From Vitreoscilla sp. (lineage in GTDB: Bacteria > Pseudomonadota > Gammaproteobacteria > Burkholderiales > Burkholderiaceae), in the NCBI GenBank assembly GCA_014378125.1, contig JACMOG010000953.1, positions 1 through 9,720 of the forward strand: a stretch of 9,720 nucleotides of DNA, written 5' to 3'. Positions 1-9,720 of this stretch are shown one piece after another. The notes under the pieces were generated by a model. That model was not told the DNA's origin. It did not search any database and saw nothing but the letters and a program-made list of their open reading frames with translations. A program made the translations under genes and the position numbers. The stretch's first letter is position 1. Every line of letters starts with the position of its first letter.

Positions 1-1089
1 CCGGGGGCCCCCCGCGGCGGCGCGCCGGCGGCAACCGCGGGGGGCACCGTGCGGAGGGCCGCGTGCGCCGACGGCGGCGGCTCCCTCCGCATCCCCGCGG
101 CCTGCTGCGGGCTGTTCGGGCTGCGTCCGTCGCGCGGCCGCGTGTCCGCCGGGCCGGGCATCGGCGAGGCCTGGTTCGGCGCGTCCAGCGAAGGCGTGCT
201 CTCGCGCAGCGTGCGCGACACCGCGCGCGCCCTCGACGCGATCGCCGGCCCCGAGCCGGGTGATCCGTTCGCCATCGCCACGCCGCGCTCGCCCTATGCC
301 GAGGCGATGCAGCAACCGCCCGGACGGCTGCGCATCGGCTTCACCACCACGTCGCCGCTGGGCACGCCGGTGCACCCCGAGGCAGTGGCCGCGGTCGCCG
401 ACGCGGCGCGCCTGCTGGCGTCGCTGGGCCACGACGTGGAAGAGGCCGCGCCCGCCATCGACGGCCCGCTGCTGGCGCGCAACTACCTGCACGTGTACTT
501 CGGCCAGGTGCCCGCCGCGATGGCGCGCGCCTATGCGGCCGGCGCTAAACGCGGCGAGTTCGAGCCGCTGACGCGCGTCATCGAGACGTTGGGCAAGTCC
601 ACGTCCGCCGCCACGCTCACCGCCAACCTGGGAATGTGGAACCAGCACGCCCGCGCGCTGGCGGCGTTCCACCAGCGCTACGACCTGCTGCTGACCCCCA
701 CCCTCGCGCACCCGCCCGTGCGCCACGGTGCCGGCGACCCGCCGAAGGCGCAGCAGGTGGCGCTCGACGTGCTCGACCGCACCGGCCTGCTGGGCCTGCT
801 CGCGCGCTCGGGCTTGCTCGCGTCCACGATAGACAAGATCGCCACCGACAGCCTGCAGTTCGTGCCCTTCACGCAACTGGCCAACCTCACCGGCACGCCC
901 GCGATGAGCGTGCCGCTGCACTGGACGGCCGACGGCCTGCCGCTGGGCGTGCAGTTCGTGGCGTCGTTCGGGCGCGAAGACCAGCTGCTGCAGTTGGCGG
1001 CGCAGCTGGAGCAGGCGAGGCCGTGGTTCGGGCGGATGCCGGCGTGGGTCACGGACGGGGCTGGCCAGGCCGCGGCGCAGGATGTCTGA
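1..1089 (+). CDS. Amidase-signature family hydrolase, C-terminal part (5' end missing)
   Basis: The reading frame is open from base 1 to the TGA at 1087-1089 and covers about 362 codons. Full amidase-signature enzymes are usually about 470-500 residues, so roughly the first 130, including the catalytic Lys, lie outside the window. The visible signature is DGGGSLRIPA followed by CCGLFGLRPSRGR. By family knowledge the Ser at bases 82-84 is the acylated nucleophile of the Ser-cisSer-Lys triad, which hydrolyses amide bonds. The C-terminal half carries the usual NLTGTPAMSVPL and GLPLGVQFVASFGRED blocks. The preceding GGSSGG loop, which supplies the cis-Ser, reads GAPRGG here (bases 4-21). The surrounding residues are also poorer than expected, so a sequence error at a contig end is suspected. 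The overall type resembles amidases related to 6-aminohexanoate-cyclic-dimer hydrolase, but the substrate cannot be told. The GTG at 49 is not a credible start because it lies inside the catalytic core. Confidence 0.9.
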   Translation, partial: PGAPRGGAPAATAGGTVRRAACADGGGSLRIPAACCGLFGLRPSRGRVSAGPGIGEAWFGASSEGVLSRSVRDTARALDAIAGPEPGDPFAIATPRSPYAEAMQQPPGRLRIGFTTTSPLGTPVHPEAVAAVADAARLLASLGHDVEEAAPAIDGPLLARNYLHVYFGQVPAAMARAYAAGAKRGEFEPLTRVIETLGKSTSAATLTANLGMWNQHARALAAFHQRYDLLLTPTLAHPPVRHGAGDPPKAQQVALDVLDRTGLLGLLARSGLLASTIDKIATDSLQFVPFTQLANLTGTPAMSVPLHWTADGLPLGVQFVASFGREDQLLQLAAQLEQARPWFGRMPAWVTDGAGQAAAQDV

Positions 1090-2699: not shown

Positions 2700-4361
2700 A
2701 TGACCGCTCACCATCCCGCCCCGCGCACGCGAGCGCGCGTTCCCGCGTTCGTGTGCACGACCGCGTCAGTGCGCGCGACCGCGCTCGCGCTCGCGGCGGC
2801 CGCGCTGGCGGGCTGCGGCACGCCACCCGCCGCGTCGCCGCCCCCGCTCGGACCGGCGCCGGTGATCGCTAGTCCGGACACGCATCAAGAGGCCGACGCC
2901 ATGCGCGTGAGCACGCTCGATGCCCGCCGCGTCGACCGCGCCGGTTTCGGCGTCGACGCGCTCTCGCTGCAACAGGTCGGCCGCCTGGGCTATGCGCGCT
3001 GGGTCGACGAGCAGTTGCATCCCGCTCCGTTCGCGCCGCCGGCGCCGGTGGCCGAGCGCATCGCACGGATGAAGATCGTGCGCGAGCCGCTGCTGGTTCG
3101 ATTGCGCGACGAGGCGGCGGTGAAGAAGGCCGCCGATGGCGTGGCCGACGACGAGCAGAAGAAGACGGCGCAGCAGGCCTACCAGAAGGACCTGTACGTG
3201 CAGGCCGACGAGGCCACGCAACGCTGGCTGCTGACCGCGGTGAACTCGCCCAACCAGGTGCAGGAGCGCCTCGTGTGGTTCTGGGTGAACCACTTCTCCA
3301 TCGCGCAGGGCAAGGCCAACCTGCGGGTGCTGGTGGGCGACTACGAGGCCACGCTGCGGGCGCATGCGCTGGGCAAGTTCCGCGACCTGCTCGAGGCCTC
3401 GGCCATGCATCCGGCCATGCTGCGCTACCTGGACAACGAGCGCAACGCCGCCGGCCAGCTCAACGAGAACTACGCCCGCGAGCTGATGGAGCTGCACACC
3501 CTGGGCGTTGACGGCGGCTACTCGCAGGCCGACGTGCAGGAGATGGCGCGCGTGCTCACCGGGCTGGGCATCCGCATCGACGCCACCGATTCGAAGGTGA
3601 AGCCGCAGCTGCAGGCGCAATACCTGCACGCCGGCGCGCTGGAGTTCAACCCGAACCGCCACGACCAGGGCACCAAGGGGGTGCTGGGCCTGCAGGTGCC
3701 GCCGGCGGGCATCGCCGAGGTGCACCTGATCCTCGATCGGCTGTCGCGCAACCCGGCCACCGCGCGCCACGTGAGCGCGCAACTGGCGCAGTACTTCGTG
3801 GCCGACGTGCCGCCGCCGGCGCTCGTCGACCGGATGGCGCGCCGCTGGCTGGCCACCGACGGCGACATCGCCGAGGTGATGAAGCTGCTGCTCACCTCGC
3901 CCGAATACGACGCGTCGCTGGGCACCCGCTTCAAGGATCCGTGGGCCTACGTGGTGTCGGCCGCGCGCCTGGCCTACGACGGCGACGTGGTGGTCAACCC
4001 GGCGCCGCTGGTCAACGCACTGCGCCAGCTGGGCGAGATGCCGTTCGGGCGCGAGACGCCGGACGGCTGGTCCATGACCGAGGCCGCGTGGGCCAGCCCG
4101 GGCCAGATGACCGCGCGCTTCGACGTCGCGCGCAACCTCGTGGGCGGCAACGGCAATGGCAACGGCGGGCTGTTCCGCGTCGACGGACTGGCCGCGCCGG
4201 CGCCGCTGCCCAGGGCCCGGGTGGAGAGCGCGGCGTGGCTGCGCACGCAGGCGCCGAGAGAATCCGAGGCCACGCGGCAGGCGCTGCTGGAGACGCTGCA
4301 GTCGCACCCGGGCGAGTGGTCGTGGGTGGCCCTCGTGTCGCCCGAGTTCATGCGCAACTGA
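2700..4361 (+). CDS. DUF1800-domain lipoprotein
   Basis: A 553-residue protein with family landmarks in order: FWVNHFS (194-200), the long block NENYARELMELHTLGVDGGY with QADVQEMARVLTG (255-288), HDQGTKGVLG (321-330), FKDPWAYVVSAAR (411-423) and MPFGRETPDGW (447-457). The N-terminus has an alanine-rich hydrophobic stretch ending in the lipobox LAGC, with the lipidated Cys at about residue 39. It is therefore predicted to be anchored to a membrane outside the cytoplasm. The basic leader before the hydrophobic core is long, and AGAGG sits about 15 bases before the ATG, so a downstream GTG (2751 or 2769) is a possible start. A GGNGNGNGG low-complexity patch lies at 482-490. The biochemical role of DUF1800 is unknown. 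It commonly neighbours DUF1501, as here. The stop codon lies inside the first unit of a 12-bp tandem repeat. Confidence 0.92.
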   Translation: MTAHHPAPRTRARVPAFVCTTASVRATALALAAAALAGCGTPPAASPPPLGPAPVIASPDTHQEADAMRVSTLDARRVDRAGFGVDALSLQQVGRLGYARWVDEQLHPAPFAPPAPVAERIARMKIVREPLLVRLRDEAAVKKAADGVADDEQKKTAQQAYQKDLYVQADEATQRWLLTAVNSPNQVQERLVWFWVNHFSIAQGKANLRVLVGDYEATLRAHALGKFRDLLEASAMHPAMLRYLDNERNAAGQLNENYARELMELHTLGVDGGYSQADVQEMARVLTGLGIRIDATDSKVKPQLQAQYLHAGALEFNPNRHDQGTKGVLGLQVPPAGIAEVHLILDRLSRNPATARHVSAQLAQYFVADVPPPALVDRMARRWLATDGDIAEVMKLLLTSPEYDASLGTRFKDPWAYVVSAARLAYDGDVVVNPAPLVNALRQLGEMPFGRETPDGWSMTEAAWASPGQMTARFDVARNLVGGNGNGNGGLFRVDGLAAPAPLPRARVESAAWLRTQAPRESEATRQALLETLQSHPGEWSWVALVSPEFMRN

Positions 4362-4423
4362 GGGCGCAACCGAGTGCACAACCGAGTGCTCAACTGATTG
4401 CTCACCCGAGTGCGCAACCGAAT
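4352..4423 (+). repeat. 12-bp tandem repeat, six copies, bridging the DUF1800/DUF1501 junction
   Basis: Six consecutive 12-base units fit the consensus GCGCAACCGAGT: 4352 GCGCAACTGAGG, 4364 GCGCAACCGAGT, 4376 GCACAACCGAGT, 4388 GCTCAACTGATT, 4400 GCTCACCCGAGT and 4412 GCGCAACCGAAT. Unit 1 contains the last two sense codons and the TGA of the DUF1800 gene. The last unit ends 12 bases before the DUF1501 ATG, and that remaining segment holds the GAGGA ribosome site. The array therefore forms almost the whole intergenic spacer. In the DUF1501 frame it is open and would read as a four-residue Ala-Gln-Pro-Ser-like repeat. It looks like slippage or duplication of the gene's 3' end followed by drift. 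Confidence 0.9.
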
Positions 4424-4435
4424 CGAGGACACCCC

Positions 4436-5665
4436 ATGCAACGACGCCATTTCCTGCACGCCGGCGCGGCGGCCGCCCTGTCGCTCAATGCCACGCACAC
4501 GTGGGCCACCCCTGCGGGATCGACGCTCGACACCCGCCTGCTGGTGGTGTTCCTGCGCGGCGCCTACGATGCCTGCAACGTGCTGGTGCCGCAGACCTCG
4601 TTCTACGCCGAGTCTCGCCCCAACATTGGCATTGCACGTCCCGGCGCAGGCAAGGACGCCGCGCTACCGCTCGATGCCGACTGGGCCCTGGCGCCCGCGT
4701 TGCAGTCCACGCTCTACCCGCGCATCCGCGCCGGCGAGGTGGCGTTCGTGCCGTTCGCCGGCATCGCCGACCTCACCCGCAGCCACTTCGAGACGCAGGA
4801 TCGCGTCGAGCTGGGGCTGCCGCTGCCGGGCGAGCACGTCGAGCCCTCCGCGCCCCGCGCCGACACCACGCAGGGCTTCCTGAACCGGCTGGCGCAGGAG
4901 CTGGGCGCGCGGCTCGACTCCGACCAGCGCGTGATGGCGTTCACCGATCGCCTGCCCAGGGTGATGCAGGGCCGGCACATGGTGGTCAACACGAGCCTGG
5001 CACGCACGGGCAAGCCCGGCACCGACGCGCGCCAGGCCGCGCTGCTGCAGCGGATGTACGCCGGCACGCCGCTGGAGCGCGGCGTGGTGGAGGGCCTGGA
5101 CACGCAGAAGCAGGTCGCCCTGGAGATGGCCGCCGAGATGCAGGAGGCCAGCCGCAACGCGATCTCGCCGAAGGGCTTCGACCTCGAGGCCACGCGTATC
5201 GCTCGCCTGATGCGCGACCAGGTGCGCGTGGGCTTCATCGACGTCGGCGGCTGGGATACCCACGTCGCCCAGGGCGGCGCCACCGGCGCGCTGGCCGGCC
5301 GCATCACCGACCTGAGCCGCGGGCTCGAGACGTTCGCGCGCGAGATGGGCCCGGCGTGGAAGGACACGGTGGTGGTGGTGATCAGCGAGTTCGGCCGCAC
5401 GTTCAAGGAGAACGGCAACCGCGGCACCGACCACGGACACGCCACCGCGTACTGGGTGTTGGGCGGTGGCGTGCGCGGCGGCGTGAAGGGCGAACAGGTG
5501 GCGCTCACCGGTCCCGGTGCGCTCAACGAGGGACGCGACTGGCCCGTGCTCAACGAGTACCGCGGCATGTTCGGCGGGCTGTTCCAGCGGATGTACGGGC
5601 TGGATGCGGCGGCGCTGCAGCGGGTGTTTCCGGGCGGGCAGCCGAAGGATCTCGGGCTGGTCTGA
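4436..5665 (+). CDS. DUF1501-domain protein, Tat-exported
   Basis: A 409-residue protein beginning MQRRHFLHAGAAAALSLNAT, a twin-arginine signal (RRxFL followed by an alanine-rich core), which predicts export in a folded state. After it come the LLVVFLRGAYDACNVLVP block (35-52), SHFETQDRVELG (116-127), GGWDTH (271-276), SEFGRT (317-322) and GTDHGH (330-335). The last three are hallmarks of DUF1501, whose fold is related to alkaline phosphatase/sulfatase. Their Asp and His residues are plausible metal ligands, but no substrate is established. The ATG at 4436 has GAGGA upstream with good spacing. The frame is open much further upstream, but only as a shadow through the DUF1800 gene. It forms an operon with the DUF1800 lipoprotein, so the pair probably works together in the periplasm or cell envelope. 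Length is normal and there is no frameshift. Confidence 0.93.
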   Translation: MQRRHFLHAGAAAALSLNATHTWATPAGSTLDTRLLVVFLRGAYDACNVLVPQTSFYAESRPNIGIARPGAGKDAALPLDADWALAPALQSTLYPRIRAGEVAFVPFAGIADLTRSHFETQDRVELGLPLPGEHVEPSAPRADTTQGFLNRLAQELGARLDSDQRVMAFTDRLPRVMQGRHMVVNTSLARTGKPGTDARQAALLQRMYAGTPLERGVVEGLDTQKQVALEMAAEMQEASRNAISPKGFDLEATRIARLMRDQVRVGFIDVGGWDTHVAQGGATGALAGRITDLSRGLETFAREMGPAWKDTVVVVISEFGRTFKENGNRGTDHGHATAYWVLGGGVRGGVKGEQVALTGPGALNEGRDWPVLNEYRGMFGGLFQRMYGLDAAALQRVFPGGQPKDLGLV

Positions 5666-6684: not shown

Positions 6685-6759
6685 ATGCGTTCACTGATTC
6701 TTCTGTTCCTTGGCGTACCCATCCCCATCATCATCCTCATTGCGCTGTTCTCGCACTGA
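6685..6759 (+). CDS. 24-residue single-pass membrane micro-protein
   Basis: A 25-codon frame (ATG to TGA) encoding MRSLILLFLGVP followed by IPIIILIALFSH. It is almost entirely hydrophobic, with one Arg at the N-terminus and a His at the C-terminus, so it should form one membrane-spanning helix with a Pro-x-Pro kink in the middle. It has an ideally placed GGAG, sits 27 bases after the membrane-protein gene and 19 bases before the hemerythrin gene, and its base composition is clearly less GC-rich than its neighbours, as expected for hydrophobic codons (ATC, ATT, CTT, TTC). I recognise the style of small conserved membrane proteins but no named family. It could be a subunit or regulator of the upstream membrane protein. 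It is below the length limit of most gene finders. Confidence 0.65.
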   Translation: MRSLILLFLGVPIPIIILIALFSH

Positions 6760-6763
6760 TCCC

Positions 6764-6769
6764 AGGAGG
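6764..6769 (+). promoter_or_regulatory. Strong ribosome binding site of the hemerythrin gene
   Basis: AGGAGG, the full anti-Shine-Dalgarno match, ends nine bases before the ATG at 6779. It is the strongest ribosome site in the window and suggests high expression. Confidence 0.7.
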
Positions 6770-6778
6770 CAAATCATC

Positions 6779-7342
6779 ATGGCAACTGCAACCCGCAAGA
6801 CCGCCGCGGCCCCCGCCAAGCGCGCGCCCGCTACCCCTCGCCCGCCCGCCGTCCAGGAGGCCACGGCGCTGTTGAAGGCCGATCACAAGCGCGTCAGCGA
6901 CCTGTTCGACCAGTACGAGCACACGCGCTCCACGGCGAAGAAGAAGGCCCTGGTGGCCTCCATCTGCATGGAGCTGGGCATCCACGCCAAGGCCGAGGAA
7001 GAGATCTTCTATCCTGCCGTGAAGGCGGCGTTGAAGGACAAGGAAATGGTCCCCGAAGCGACCGTCGAGCACGCCACGCTGAAGGAGCTGATGGCCCAGG
7101 TGGAGGGCAAGGAGCCCGACGGCGAGATGTTCGACGCGAAGATCAAGGTCATGTCCGAATACGTGAAGCATCACGTGAAGGAAGAGGAGACCGAGATGTT
7201 CCCGAAGGCGCGCAAGACCAAGCTCGACATGAAGGCTCTGGGCGCGCAGATCGCCGCGCGCAAGGAAGAACTGAAGGCGTCTTGGCCGCTGTCGGAAGAC
7301 AAGCCCGGCCTGCCGGGCCGCGTCGTGGAAGCGGTGTCCTGA
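6779..7342 (+). CDS. Hemerythrin-domain protein with basic Ala/Pro/Lys N-terminal tail
   Basis: 187 residues. Residues about 25-145 form a hemerythrin/HHE four-helix bundle. Likely di-iron ligands are His36 (in LLKADHKRVSDLF), His69 and Glu73 (GIHAKAEEEIFYP), His98 (TVEHATLKELM), and the His131/His132 with Glu135/136 cluster (YVKHHVKEEETEMFP). By family knowledge such proteins bind oxygen, store or sense iron, or act in nitrosative or oxidative stress. The exact role here is not known. The first 24 residues (TRKTAAAPAKRAPATPRPP) are rich in Lys, Arg, Ala and Pro and resemble histone-H1-like tails, which might bind nucleic acid. That is inference. There is no signal peptide, so it is cytoplasmic. 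It is the last gene of a tight run with the membrane protein and micro-protein, and is followed by a strong hairpin at 7351-7389. Several internal Met codons are ruled out by the AGGAGG at 6764. Confidence 0.92.
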   Translation: MATATRKTAAAPAKRAPATPRPPAVQEATALLKADHKRVSDLFDQYEHTRSTAKKKALVASICMELGIHAKAEEEIFYPAVKAALKDKEMVPEATVEHATLKELMAQVEGKEPDGEMFDAKIKVMSEYVKHHVKEEETEMFPKARKTKLDMKALGAQIAARKEELKASWPLSEDKPGLPGRVVEAVS

Positions 7343-7350
7343 GCGAACGC

Positions 7351-7389
7351 GACGGCAGGCGCCCCGGCTCAGCGGGGCGCCTGGCCGTC
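7351..7389. terminator. Long hairpin between the convergent hemerythrin and PAS genes
   Basis: GACGGC plus AGGCGCCCC (7351-7365) pairs with GGGGCGCCT plus GCCGTC (7374-7382, 7384-7389) around an 8-nt loop, with a single bulged G at 7383. This 15-bp stem is followed by GTTTCC on the plus strand. It starts nine bases after the hemerythrin stop. The PAS gene's stop codon (7369-7371) lies in the loop, so the right arm is also the coding 3' end of that gene. It probably serves the plus-strand operon and perhaps both directions. Confidence 0.75.
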
Positions 7390-7926
7390 GTTTCCGATGG
7401 CGCGCTCGACGGCCTCGCGTGCAATGCGCGTGGCCGTCGCGTCATGATCGCCGGCCGGCGCCGCGCCCGCGGCGATGCCGGATTCCCTCATCAGTTCGCC
7501 CGCGGCTTGGGCCACCTGCGCAAGCAACGTCGCGTCGCGCGCGATGGCCTCGTCCGCGCCGTCGCCCCGAGCGTCGATCAGCGAGCAGAGCAGGCACAGC
7601 GGCGCGCCATCGGCGCCCCGCACTGCCGCGATCGACAACGCGGCGGGAAACACGCGGCCATCGGCCGTTTCGACGTCCATTCGCAGCGTGCCGCCCGGCG
7701 TCAGGTCGGCATGCGGCGTCGTCGACAGCGTGCTCAACGGCCGCCCCGCCAACGCCGCGGGATCCCGGCCCAGCAGGGCGCCGAACGCGTCGTTCGCGAA
7801 CAGGATGGGAGCGCCCGGCGCCGCGGCGTCGGCGAGGGCGAGCGGCGTCTTCGCCAGGCGCGTCGCGACGATCACGGGCGCGGCCGGGCAACCCGGCGTC
7901 GACGAAAGGTGGGGGAGGGAGTTCAT
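7369..7926 (-). CDS. Single PAS-domain protein, LOV-like but without the flavin-binding cysteine motif
   Basis: 185 residues from the ATG at 7926. Residues about 26-120 fit a PAS fold: PLALADAAAPGAPILFANDA (28-47), FGALLGRDPAALAGRPLSTL (48-67), then the strands LRMDVETADGRVFPAALSIA and GAPLCLLCSLIDARG. The arrangement is like LOV proteins, but where photoactive LOV domains have GRNCRFLQ this protein has GRPLSTLS, so the reactive cysteine is missing and blue-light adduct chemistry is not expected. A C-terminal helical part (about 126-178) follows, with no kinase, cyclase or DNA-binding domain. It could be a stand-alone sensor or a partner-binding module. The start is uncertain: no candidate has a good ribosome site, and in-frame ATGs exist at 7959, 7998 and 8070. 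The last would overlap the divergent YqcI/YcgG gene. Its 3' end shares a terminator hairpin with the convergent hemerythrin gene. Confidence 0.7.
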   Translation of the reverse strand: MNSLPHLSSTPGCPAAPVIVATRLAKTPLALADAAAPGAPILFANDAFGALLGRDPAALAGRPLSTLSTTPHADLTPGGTLRMDVETADGRVFPAALSIAAVRGADGAPLCLLCSLIDARGDGADEAIARDATLLAQVAQAAGELMRESGIAAGAAPAGDHDATATRIAREAVERAIGNDGQAPR

Positions 7927-8039
7927 GGCGGCAGGAGTCTCGCGCCGGATCGGCGTCATCGATGTCGGCACGCCGCGATCCCGCGGCAGGCTCGACATTC
8001 GATTCGGCCCGGCGGCTTCCCGATTGCCTGAAGCAGTCC

Positions 8040-8735
8040 ATGAACAAGCTCCAGACATCGACACGCGCATTGGGCGCGCTCAAGGACGGATTCGTCGCCC
8101 GCTTCAAGGCCTTCGTCGCCAACCCGAAATTCCCCTGCGTGGGGGCCAAGTCGGCCATGAACCGCGACCGCATGCGCTTCGGGCTCTATGACACGCTCAG
8201 CGGCGAAGAGGCCGCCCGCACCCTGTGCGAGCAGTTGGCCGACTTCTCGGGACAGTATCCGAAGCCCGGCACCGACCCGGTGTCGTACGTGGCGATGTTC
8301 CGCGACCCGGTGGCCAACGAGGACGAGTTCCATCGCCGGCTGTGGACGCACCTCCAGGCGATGCACGACATCGACTCCGCATCCCATCCGTGGGACGACG
8401 CCGTCAGCGCCGACGCGGACGACGCGCAGTTCTCGTTCAGCATCGCGTCGCGCGCCTTCTTCGTGGTGGGCCTGCATCCGCATGCGTCGAGGCTGGCCCG
8501 GCGGGCGCCGTTCCCGTGCCTGGTGTTCAACTTCCACGACCAGTTCGAGGCGATGCGCCAGGATGGTCGCTACGCCAAGCTGCAGGACGCGATCCGCGCG
8601 CGCGACGTCGCGCTGCAAGGCAACATCAATCCGGTGCTGGCGCGGTTCGGCGAGGCGTCGGAGGCGCACCAGTATTCGGGCCGCGCGGCGTGCGATGCCG
8701 ACCCGGTCGCCTTCCTCGCGAGGCAAGCCGCGTGA
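8040..8735 (+). CDS. YqcI/YcgG family protein (GntA/DcsA-like, putative heme-dependent guanidino N-hydroxylase)
   Basis: 231 residues with the family's conserved blocks in order: FPCVGAKSA (31-39), PWDDAVSADADD (117-128), FSFSIASRAFFVVGLHPHAS (131-150) followed by RLARR, FNFHDQFE (163-170), ALQGNINPVL (191-200) and FGEASEAHQYSGR (203-215). Characterised relatives, GntA of guanitoxin and DcsA of D-cycloserine biosynthesis, are small heme proteins that N-hydroxylate guanidino groups of arginine-type amino acids. His146, His148, His166 or His210 could be heme ligands, but I cannot tell which. The Cys-Pro-Phe-type ending I expect in this family is not present after QYSGR. The substrate is unknown. 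The ATG at 8040 has no good ribosome site. Its TGA overlaps the next gene's ATG by one base (TGATG at 8733-8737), so the two are translationally coupled. It is divergent from the PAS gene. Confidence 0.88.
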   Translation: MNKLQTSTRALGALKDGFVARFKAFVANPKFPCVGAKSAMNRDRMRFGLYDTLSGEEAARTLCEQLADFSGQYPKPGTDPVSYVAMFRDPVANEDEFHRRLWTHLQAMHDIDSASHPWDDAVSADADDAQFSFSIASRAFFVVGLHPHASRLARRAPFPCLVFNFHDQFEAMRQDGRYAKLQDAIRARDVALQGNINPVLARFGEASEAHQYSGRAACDADPVAFLARQAA

Positions 8736-9349
8736 TGGCGCAGTCGATGACCTGCGGCTGCACGCGGATCGCGCCGCAGTCGGGCGCGGGCTTCCGGCTG
8801 AGCAAGGGCGACGTCCTGCGCGTGATCGATCCCGAGGGCGAGCAGGTGTCCGACCTGTTCGCGTTTTGCGATGGCGAGCCGGCGTGCAGCCTGTCGTCGG
8901 GCCGCACCATCGACTATGCCGGCAAGATCTACCTGTCCAAGGGCGACGTGCTGTGGTCCAACGACAGCCGGCCGATGTTCACGATCCTGGAGGACGACGT
9001 AGGGCGGCACGACTTCCTGCTCACCCCGTGCAGCCAGGAGATGTTCGAGATCCTCTACAGGCACCGCGGCCACCACCCGAGCTGCTTCGAGAACCTGTGC
9101 CGCGCGTTCGAGCCGTTCGGCATCGAGCCGGCGCGCATCTCGACCACGTTCAACATCTTCATGCGCGTGGACGTGGCGCCCGACGGCGCCGTCGCGGTGA
9201 AGCCGCCGCTGTCCAAGGCGGGGGACCGGATCGAGCTGCGTGCCGAGATGGACATGGTGTGCGCGCTCACGGCCTGCTCGGCAGAGGGCTCGAACAACGG
9301 CACGTTCAAACCCATCGATTTCGAGATCATTCCCGCGGGCGCGGCGTGA
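8735..9349 (+). CDS. DUF1989 (urea-carboxylase-associated family) protein
   Basis: 204 residues. Visible family blocks are DPEGEQVSDLFAF (32-44), RHDFLLTPCS (91-100), CFENLCRAFEPFGI (117-130), TTFNIFMRVDV (137-147) and the highly typical C-terminus PLSKAGDRIELRAEMDMV (158-175) then ALTACSAEGSNNGTFKPIDF (177-196). Cys99, Cys181 and His92 are candidate active-site or metal residues. In this family, paired proteins next to guanidine/urea carboxylases form carboxyguanidine deiminase, which removes ammonia from a carboxylated guanidine. The partner carboxylase is absent here, so this protein may act on a different guanidino or ureido compound, perhaps the product of the upstream YqcI/YcgG enzyme. 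The start ATG overlaps the preceding stop and a GAGG lies 11 bases upstream. The stop overlaps the next gene's GTG by four bases (GTGA, 9346-9349). There is no signal peptide. Confidence 0.87.
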   Translation: MAQSMTCGCTRIAPQSGAGFRLSKGDVLRVIDPEGEQVSDLFAFCDGEPACSLSSGRTIDYAGKIYLSKGDVLWSNDSRPMFTILEDDVGRHDFLLTPCSQEMFEILYRHRGHHPSCFENLCRAFEPFGIEPARISTTFNIFMRVDVAPDGAVAVKPPLSKAGDRIELRAEMDMVCALTACSAEGSNNGTFKPIDFEIIPAGAA

Positions 9350-9720
9350 CGCGCGGGCGCACCCACACGCCCATCGTCGCCACGCTGCGGGGCCTGATCG
9401 CCGAACACGACTGGGCGCCGCGCTTCGATGCGGCCGTGCAGCAACTCGTGGCCCAGGCCATCCCGGCGCTCGCGGGCATCCGCACGCTCGACGACTATCT
9501 CGCGTTCATCGACGACATGGTCGCCTGGGCACCGCGCGAGCGCACCGACTCCCTGCTCGTGCACGACAAGCTGGTGACGTTCCACTTCCTGCTCGACCAG
9601 CCGGCGCTGCGGCCGCTGCAATCGCCGCGCGACGCGGCGGTGGCCGACCCGGCATTGACGCAGCTGACGGCGGGGAGCAGCGACTCCGCCGGCACCTGGG
9701 GGGCCCGGCTGGACACGACG
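9346..9720 (+). CDS. N-terminal part of an unidentified protein, possibly phosphatidylserine-decarboxylase-like (3' end missing)
   Basis: The frame is open from the GTG at 9346, which overlaps the DUF1989 stop (GTGA), to the end of the window: 125 codons with typical GC-rich third positions. The product begins with a helical region (TPIVATLRGLIAEHDWAPRF, then DAAVQQLVAQAI). A well-formed block follows: TLDDYLAFIDDMVAWAPRE (about 51-69) and LVHDKLVTFHFLLDQPALRP (75-94). The pattern of a helical domain with WxP, FxFxLDQ and a terminal TWGxxLDT reminds me of the N-terminal domain found before some phosphatidylserine decarboxylase-like pyruvoyl enzymes. That is recollection of a pattern, not proof, and the catalytic part would lie beyond the window. 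It is the third member of the coupled run with the YqcI/YcgG and DUF1989 genes. The last 20 or so codons look less orderly, as at the other end of the window. Confidence 0.6.
   Translation, partial: MTRGRTHTPIVATLRGLIAEHDWAPRFDAAVQQLVAQAIPALAGIRTLDDYLAFIDDMVAWAPRERTDSLLVHDKLVTFHFLLDQPALRPLQSPRDAAVADPALTQLTAGSSDSAGTWGARLDTT

Follow-up and report, generated by a model that had tools for sequence, protein, structure and literature searches.

The window analysed here, a 9,720-nucleotide stretch of Vitreoscilla sp. DNA (contig JACMOG010000953.1 of assembly GCA_014378125.1), carries at its right end a gene of the YqcI/YcgG family (gene 1), a gene of the DUF1989 family (gene 2) and the start of a decarboxylase-like gene (gene 3). 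Comparison across genomes makes it nearly certain that the pairing of YqcI/YcgG with DUF1989 is a real, conserved unit, referred to below as the module. Because this gene pair travels together across many unrelated bacteria, the two proteins are probably the successive catalysts of a single two-step reaction that has yet to be described. We lean towards a free-standing two-enzyme module in which N-hydroxylation of a guanidino group would be followed by a redox-neutral step on the DUF1989 protein, a chemistry that we infer. Strong comparative evidence links two families about which little is understood: whatever one of them acts on limits the choices for the other, and the 'function unknown' of DUF1989 becomes a question for a two-protein assay. 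Our literature searches, mostly reaching non-subscription papers, found none on the YqcI-DUF1989 pair.

A profile of gene 1 relatives, run over genome contigs, returned at least 562 relatives, of which the best 80 loci were kept. Of these 80 loci, 73 have a co-oriented DUF1989 gene just downstream, with a median gap of 17 nt and a maximum of 470 (between profile-aligned ends). Among the 73, the DUF1989 gene is cut by a contig end in two loci (L023 and L036) and divided between frames in a third (L026), and the scan includes near-copies or loci of the same genome (L035/L036, L037/L042 and L019/L020). Since the scan profile was built partly from paired copies, this count is biased upwards, and genes drawn by phylum give a fairer one. 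PF08892 (YqcI_YcgG) genes were drawn from 200, 198, 118, 119, 119 and 198 genomes, the counts excluding the centre genomes G002, G017, G011, G020, G009 and G013; two drawn genomes were already in the scan (G022, and G401, whose DUF1989 matches that of L025). With GntA-like defined as a module-profile score above 200 bits (L107 and L112 fell below the family cut-off and were left uncounted), a DUF1989 gene was adjacent at 15 of the 18 GntA-like YqcI genes of the drawn genomes (Pseudomonadota 7/8, Actinomycetota 3/4, Nitrospirota 1/1, Planctomycetota 0/1 and Bacteroidota 4/4), and no GntA-like YqcI was seen in the drawn Acidobacteriota genomes. Paired copies were found in a total of 12 bacterial phyla: Pseudomonadota, Actinomycetota, Nitrospirota, Bacteroidota, Verrucomicrobiota, Planctomycetota, Acidobacteriota, Gemmatimonadota, Chloroflexota, Armatimonadota, Vulcanimicrobiota and Deinococcota. 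A sequence-only reading of the window had joined all three genes in one coupled cassette and had looked to recurrence of the trio in other genomes as its check; the pair did recur and kept its catalytic residues, whereas the trio did not (1/80 loci).

DUF1989 genes are scarce, exactly one copy being present in 22 of the 30 genomes behind the loci, and likewise in 12 of the 14 drawn paired genomes searched. That the sole DUF1989 of a genome should so repeatedly stand beside YqcI is, in our judgement, far beyond chance. Distances among YqcI proteins and among DUF1989 proteins were correlated (0.71 over 89 pairs, a set without six repeats and without those pairs in which one partner, being cut or broken, scored low), the best of 1000 permutations reaching 0.08. 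This correlation fits joint inheritance of the two genes, but common descent of the hosts gives the same signal. The DUF1989 copies of the module also grouped, weakly, as one clade: the 89 rows fell on one side of a branch with a Shimodaira-Hasegawa-like approximate likelihood ratio (SH-aLRT) of 69, L033 and L078 forming long branches.

YqcI genes of a divergent type, with 41-64 bits on the module profile versus 251-332 for paired copies, were unpaired in the drawn bacterial genomes. The two found in non-centre genomes (L101 and L114, 42 and 44 bits) both lacked a DUF1989 gene in their 3.6-kb stretch, as did L093 from a centre genome. A second, divergent YqcI-like open reading frame (ORF; PF08892, 50.5 bits) was seen just upstream of the paired copy in a Phycisphaerales locus (L029:5226-5744, plus strand). 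For haloarchaea, a plasmid search with gene 2 gave 492 records, and all five haloarchaeal loci among the 30 matches listed were examined. In four of the five the gene order of the module is inverted, with DUF1989 first and a divergent YqcI after it (Table 1); the fifth, from Halalkalicoccus (L138), gave no YqcI profile match in its stretch. The YqcI protein of L134 stayed below the NCBI GntA cut-off (48.6 versus 145 bits), and in this locus an asparagine-synthetase-like gene precedes the pair. As the subfamilies differ and the gene order is inverted, these loci suggest that the YqcI-DUF1989 association was made twice, and two independent associations argue for shared chemistry and not for shared ancestry alone.

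The family assignments of the sequence-only reading were both borne out by Pfam: gene 1 matched PF08892 YqcI_YcgG (181 bits versus a cut-off of 27, E 3.2e-53) and gene 2 matched PF09347 DUF1989 (190 bits versus 27, E 2.5e-56). Gene 1 also passed the NCBIfam model NF041366 GntA (263 bits versus 145). This model is broad, the unpaired copies L009, L010, L121, L122 and L123 passing it too. Of 17 plasmid records that contain a relative of gene 1, 14 carry the RefSeq name 'guanitoxin biosynthesis heme-dependent pre-guanitoxin N-hydroxylase GntA', and ten plasmid regions with such relatives held no second gene annotated gnt. Because no other gnt gene accompanies gene 1 in the regions examined, the name is probably too specific for these relatives and is not to be taken as their function.

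Published systems are compared, here and below, as described in the cited passages of the respective papers. Oxidation of guanidines is reported for AglA, ChmN and GntA (PMC12866846, PMC10849742, PMC10673588). In AglA the heme ligand is Cys44, the arginine side chain is sandwiched by Phe152 and Phe182, Gln177 places the guanidine via water and Arg179 grips the substrate backbone (PMC12866846). Residues and fold of gene 1 were compared with those of AglA. Cys33 of gene 1 aligned to the heme ligand, F141, F169 and N164 were read from the alignment as the counterparts of Phe152, Phe182 and Gln177, and H166 stands where AglA has Arg179. Over the 89 pairs, C33, N164 and F169 were kept in 89/89 and position 141 was F or Y in 88/89; the haloarchaeal proteins of L134 and L141 have Gln and Arg at the Gln177 and Arg179 positions. 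With the sandwich residues kept and Arg179 replaced by His, the pocket of gene 1 looks, from these alignments, as if its guanidine end were that of AglA and its other end changed, and the rest of the substrate would then be different. An AlphaFold2 model of gene 1 (predicted local distance difference test, pLDDT, 89) was searched with Foldseek and matched five AglA entries with template modelling (TM) scores of 0.73-0.76, E values of 1.2e-9 to 5.9e-9 and 21-22% identity, the best being 9ubb (TM 0.76, E 1.2e-9); only AglA entries were returned at E 0.001 or better. Hits to the heme domains of nitric oxide synthases, at E 0.65 or more and TM 0.15-0.27, were set aside as noise. We predict that gene 1 encodes a thiolate-heme guanidine N-hydroxylase of the GntA-like branch.

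Gene 2 has counterparts of the metal-site residues of Tdm, a DUF1989-domain protein. C99, C117 and C181 aligned to the zinc cysteines C263, C279 and C343 of Tdm, while D40, H114 and E184 aligned to D198, H276 and D346 (published Tdm numbering, with a chain offset that we derived). Asp346 is a proposed iron ligand of Tdm (PMC12560246). Over the 89 pairs, C99, C117 and D40 were invariant (89/89), C181 was kept in 88/89 with one gap, H114 in 83/89 and E184 in 71/89. The model of gene 2 (pLDDT 94.8) matched the DUF1989 structures 3siy, 3oru and 3di4 at TM 0.85-0.91. The comparison proteins passed their NCBI models (UAAP2 from L115-L117, UAAP1 from L115 and L116, Tdm from L118-L120) or were taken as annotated (UAAP1 and UAAP2 of L132 and L135). 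In UAAP2, which we take to be the carboxyguanidine deiminase subunit CgdB, the H114 position holds Met or Gln and the E184 position Leu or Ile in all five proteins compared, and UAAP1 proteins have lost most of the metal site. Gene 2 is predicted to be a zinc-dependent enzyme whose substrate is what the gene 1 enzyme produces.

The reaction that we favour would run as follows. In the first step, to judge from its family, the YqcI/YcgG protein would use its Cys-ligated heme, electrons from a general ferredoxin system and O2 to produce an N-hydroxylated guanidino metabolite. In the second, the DUF1989 protein, with its Cys3 zinc site and the nearby His/Glu second site, would convert this N-hydroxyguanidine without further redox chemistry. 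Dehydration followed by hydrolysis at the N-alkyl carbon might yield an aldehyde and a guanidine, a proposal of our own made by analogy with the trimethylamine N-oxide (TMAO) demethylase and its N-O substrate; alternatively, if carboxyguanidine deiminase is the better analogue, the guanidine carbon might be hydrolysed to give a urea and hydroxylamine or ammonia. By these analogies they would be the two likeliest outcomes, and the evidence separates neither from the other. More tentatively still, and with doubt prevailing, the module could be an N-hydroxyguanidine system of general metabolism that occurs in at least 12 bacterial phyla and was put together once more in haloarchaea from other subfamilies. 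DUF1989 would then be a novel type of enzyme that processes N-O compounds in a redox-neutral way; the two proteins might, for instance, be an oxidative N-dealkylase pair that releases free guanidine or demethylates methylguanidine. If true, guanidine would have a further, widespread biological origin.

Several observations weigh against the favoured reaction or against a strict pairing. No adjacent DUF1989 was found at 7 of the 80 scanned loci (two of them, L045 and L048, at contig ends) or at 3 of the 18 drawn genes (L100, L106 and L111, whose 14-kb stretches L121-L123 held none either); the plasmid loci L009 and L010 carry a GntA-like YqcI without an adjacent DUF1989, and genome G649 gave no DUF1989 match at all. 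Such unpaired GntA-like copies imply that the hydroxylase can do without a partner or use one encoded far away. Among the characterised relatives, the activity of DcsA is described as having had no in vitro confirmation (PMC10849742). On the side of gene 2, the haloarchaeal DUF1989 proteins have P and K in place of the His/Glu second site, and L133, L140 and L142 also encode DUF1989 proteins with a His and Asp pair, two of these loci having amino-acid ATP-binding cassette (ABC) transporter genes, so that the resemblance to Tdm is not specific. Finally, neither the window nor any of 20 module loci yielded a guanidine riboswitch (the loci at Rfam gathering scores only), and no guanidine gene was prominent among the recurrent neighbours listed; little beyond family membership then links the module to guanidines.

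The riboswitch result was set against a positive control. In addition to the module, two genomes, G006 (Nitrosomonas) and G015 (Thiobacillus), have a UAAP1-UAAP2 tandem elsewhere, next to a biotin-dependent carboxylase. One Guanidine-I and one Guanidine-II riboswitch were detected at these two tandems, that is at two of three UAAP1-UAAP2 loci (L117 had none), and the module loci of the same genomes (L024 and L050) carried no guanidine riboswitch. The module was therefore not seen under the known guanidine sensors Guanidine-I and Guanidine-II.

The absence of riboswitches is one of the points that speak for a substrate other than a guanidine. The pair might act on another nitrogen compound (an amine, amidine or amide), YqcI being an N- or C-hydroxylase and DUF1989 a hydrolase or demethylase; the replacement of the backbone-binding Arg179 of AglA by His and the TMAO demethylation catalysed by the DUF1989 member Tdm (PMC12560246) would agree with this. 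The characterised YqcI/YcgG enzymes described act on guanidines (PMC12866846, PMC10849742, PMC10673588), and the aromatic residues that sandwich the guanidine side chain are retained in the module. We consider a non-guanidine substrate unlikely, though to be taken seriously, and keep guanidino N-hydroxylation as the preferred first step.

That all three genes of the window form one cassette, in which the decarboxylase-like gene 3 would make an amine from the product, appears improbable. The arrangement itself is as the sequence-only reading had it: direct reading confirmed an overlap of 1 base between genes 1 and 2 and of 4 bases (GTGA) between genes 2 and 3, and an intact trio is present in L015. 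The guess of a pyruvoyl decarboxylase-like product also gained support. The 125 visible residues of gene 3 gave no Pfam match, but over 122 residues they are 52% identical to the N-terminal portion of a translated stretch of 380 residues in L015 (7264-8406). That stretch carries PF02666 PS_Dcarbxylase (E 1.1e-41); the window stops before the corresponding part of gene 3. Against a cassette, gene 3 adjoins the pair in 1/80 loci (L015), only a remnant is left in the closest relative L011 (its last 58, C-terminal, residues are recognisable, at 59% identity), and the visible residues matched none of 72,556 plasmid records. Gene 3 is a local hitch-hiker, outside the conserved module.

A fragment of a specialised-metabolite pathway, of the guanitoxin, D-cycloserine or graminine/gramibactin type, seems very improbable. 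The NCBIfam GntA call for gene 1 would favour it, as might the cupin-domain gene upstream on the opposite strand. The ten plasmid regions without another gnt gene stand against it, no neighbour family exceeded 6/144 ORFs, and the spread over 12 phyla, with unrelated surroundings, does not resemble that of a biosynthetic cluster. The gramibactin-type end point suggested by the sequence-only reading found no support: siderophore genes were not observed next to the module, and the divergent type of YqcI was unpaired in the drawn bacteria, GrbE and ChmN not having been placed on the profile scale. A variant of nitrogen scavenging by guanidine carboxylase and carboxyguanidine deiminase (CgdAB), for which the shared DUF1989 fold and the three zinc cysteines common to gene 2 and UAAP2 would speak, is mostly refuted and hardly tenable, as gene 2 lies under both the UAAP1 and UAAP2 cut-offs, is a single subunit with no biotin carboxylase in the window, and differs from 5/5 UAAP2 proteins at the H114 and E184 positions, and as the module coexists in G006 and G015 with riboswitch-bearing UAAP1-UAAP2-carboxylase operons elsewhere, the module loci L024 and L050 being without a riboswitch.

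The surroundings of the module offered no recurrent third partner. Clustering of neighbour ORFs from 90 loci (L001-L090) found none, and a Pfam scan of 144 of 278 mechanically picked, partly trimmed ORFs (the 25 commonest of 99 matched families were viewed) found no widespread partner, the commonest family, short-chain dehydrogenases, reaching 6/144. Around the paired plasmid copies examined, neighbours were unrelated from region to region. Hemerythrin-like ORFs lie near the module in L011 (upstream), L019, L066 and L068, and LigD-like ones in L007, L035, L055 and L076; these counts for a stress-gene context are small and come without a control set. In the window, family scans of the eight genes upstream of the module (several of them in Table 1) named no carboxylase and no other gnt-type gene, in agreement with the sequence-only reading, which had noted no urea or guanidine carboxylase and no other guanitoxin genes.

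Table 1. Features of the window and haloarchaeal DUF1989-YqcI loci
Feature	Position	Strand	Remarks
Gene 1, YqcI/YcgG family, 231 aa	8040-8735	+	ATG 8040; stop TGA 8733-8735
Gene 2, DUF1989 family, 204 aa	8735-9349	+	ATG 8735-8737; stop TGA 9347-9349
Gene 3 start, phosphatidylserine-decarboxylase-like	9346-9720	+	GTG 9346-9348; open to window end, 125 codons
Amidase-family gene	1-1089		left end missing; allophanate hydrolase models matched far below cut-off (76 vs 511 bits)
Small cupin-domain gene	2047-2553	opposite	5.5 kb upstream of module
DUF1800 gene, then DUF1501 gene	2700-5665		weak twin-arginine translocation (Tat) signal match in DUF1501 ORF
Hemerythrin-domain gene	6710-7342		upstream of module
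PAS-like gene	7369-8070	opposite	upstream of module; below Pfam cut-offs
Inverted pair, Halomarina sp. BND7	L134:2989-4485		by annotation; Pfam confirms YqcI and DUF1989
Inverted pair, Halorussus limi	L136:6989-8432		by annotation; Pfam confirms YqcI
Inverted pair, Halorussus aquaticus	L137		YqcI by profile, 30 bits over part of protein
Inverted pair, Halomarina sp. PSR21	L141		YqcI by profile

Three loci without a paired DUF1989 are worth describing for themselves. In a Nitrospira genome (L044, G014) the YqcI locus has no DUF1989 and the sole DUF1989 match of the genome lies on another contig, near its end (G014:C64:277-771). At the planctomycetotal GntA-like gene without DUF1989 (L123:3136-7616, minus strand), the frame overlaps a downstream protein kinase-WD40 gene of 1226 aa. 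On a Rahnella sikkimica plasmid (L009:7953-13238), a GntA-like gene is followed in one direction by short-chain dehydrogenase (SDR), hypothetical, 2Fe-2S, LysE-type exporter, PheT-like and MOSC genes, a run that looks like an uncharacterised cluster.

When the module is set beside known systems, it shares with the YqcI/YcgG enzymes AglA, ChmN, DcsA and GntA the Pfam family, the Cys heme ligand, the predicted fold and the aromatic sandwich residues; it differs in sitting with DUF1989, in not being seen in a biosynthetic cluster and in the change of AglA Arg179 to His. The graminine enzymes GrbE/GrbD and ChmN/ChmM resemble it in combining a YqcI/YcgG-type oxygenase with a second enzyme proposed to act on an N-hydroxyguanidine (PMC6771848, PMC10849742, PMC9679993). 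In the route proposed for graminine the oxygenase hydroxylates arginine and the SznF-like partner would act next, being described without in vitro activity (PMC10849742). This second enzyme is an SznF-like (cupin) protein and proposed N-N bond former, not a DUF1989, and siderophore or chalkophore assembly genes lie beside theirs, whereas siderophore assembly genes were found neither among the window proteins scanned nor in the 25 commonest families of the 144 neighbour ORFs. No other guanitoxin gene was named among the window genes scanned, the window ending at 9720. In an actinomycetotal genome (L124:6272-7462, minus strand), a single open frame encodes a YqcI/YcgG domain and, after it, a cupin domain, which looks like a natural fusion of the oxygenase with a cupin partner.

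Among DUF1989 proteins, gene 2 has in common with the CgdAB subunits UAAP1 and UAAP2 the fold and the Cys3 zinc site. It scores far below their cut-offs (81.6 versus 205.95 bits for UAAP1, 110.9 versus 284.7 bits for UAAP2), the window has one DUF1989 with no tandem subunits and no biotin carboxylase among the genes scanned, the second site is His/Glu versus Met/Leu, and no riboswitch was found at the module; the analogy with carboxyguanidine deiminase drawn in the sequence-only reading is weak on these grounds. With Tdm, which demethylates TMAO, an N-O compound (PMC12560246), gene 2 shares a metal site with Asp, His, three Cys and an acidic residue (Glu184 in the module for Asp346). Tdm has extra N-terminal and GcvT domains, whereas gene 2 is a lone 204-residue domain that scores far under the Tdm cut-off (87 versus 1100 bits). 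Further sources are PMC11271267, PMC8319176 and PMC8976061. The features tested fit neither the guanitoxin, carboxyguanidine-deiminase and gramibactin systems nor that of Tdm. A study of Nitrospirales, as cited here, judged DUF1989 genes without other guanidine genes to be likely false positives for carboxyguanidine deiminase (PMC12342949); Nitrospira is among the module hosts, and the module may explain those matches.

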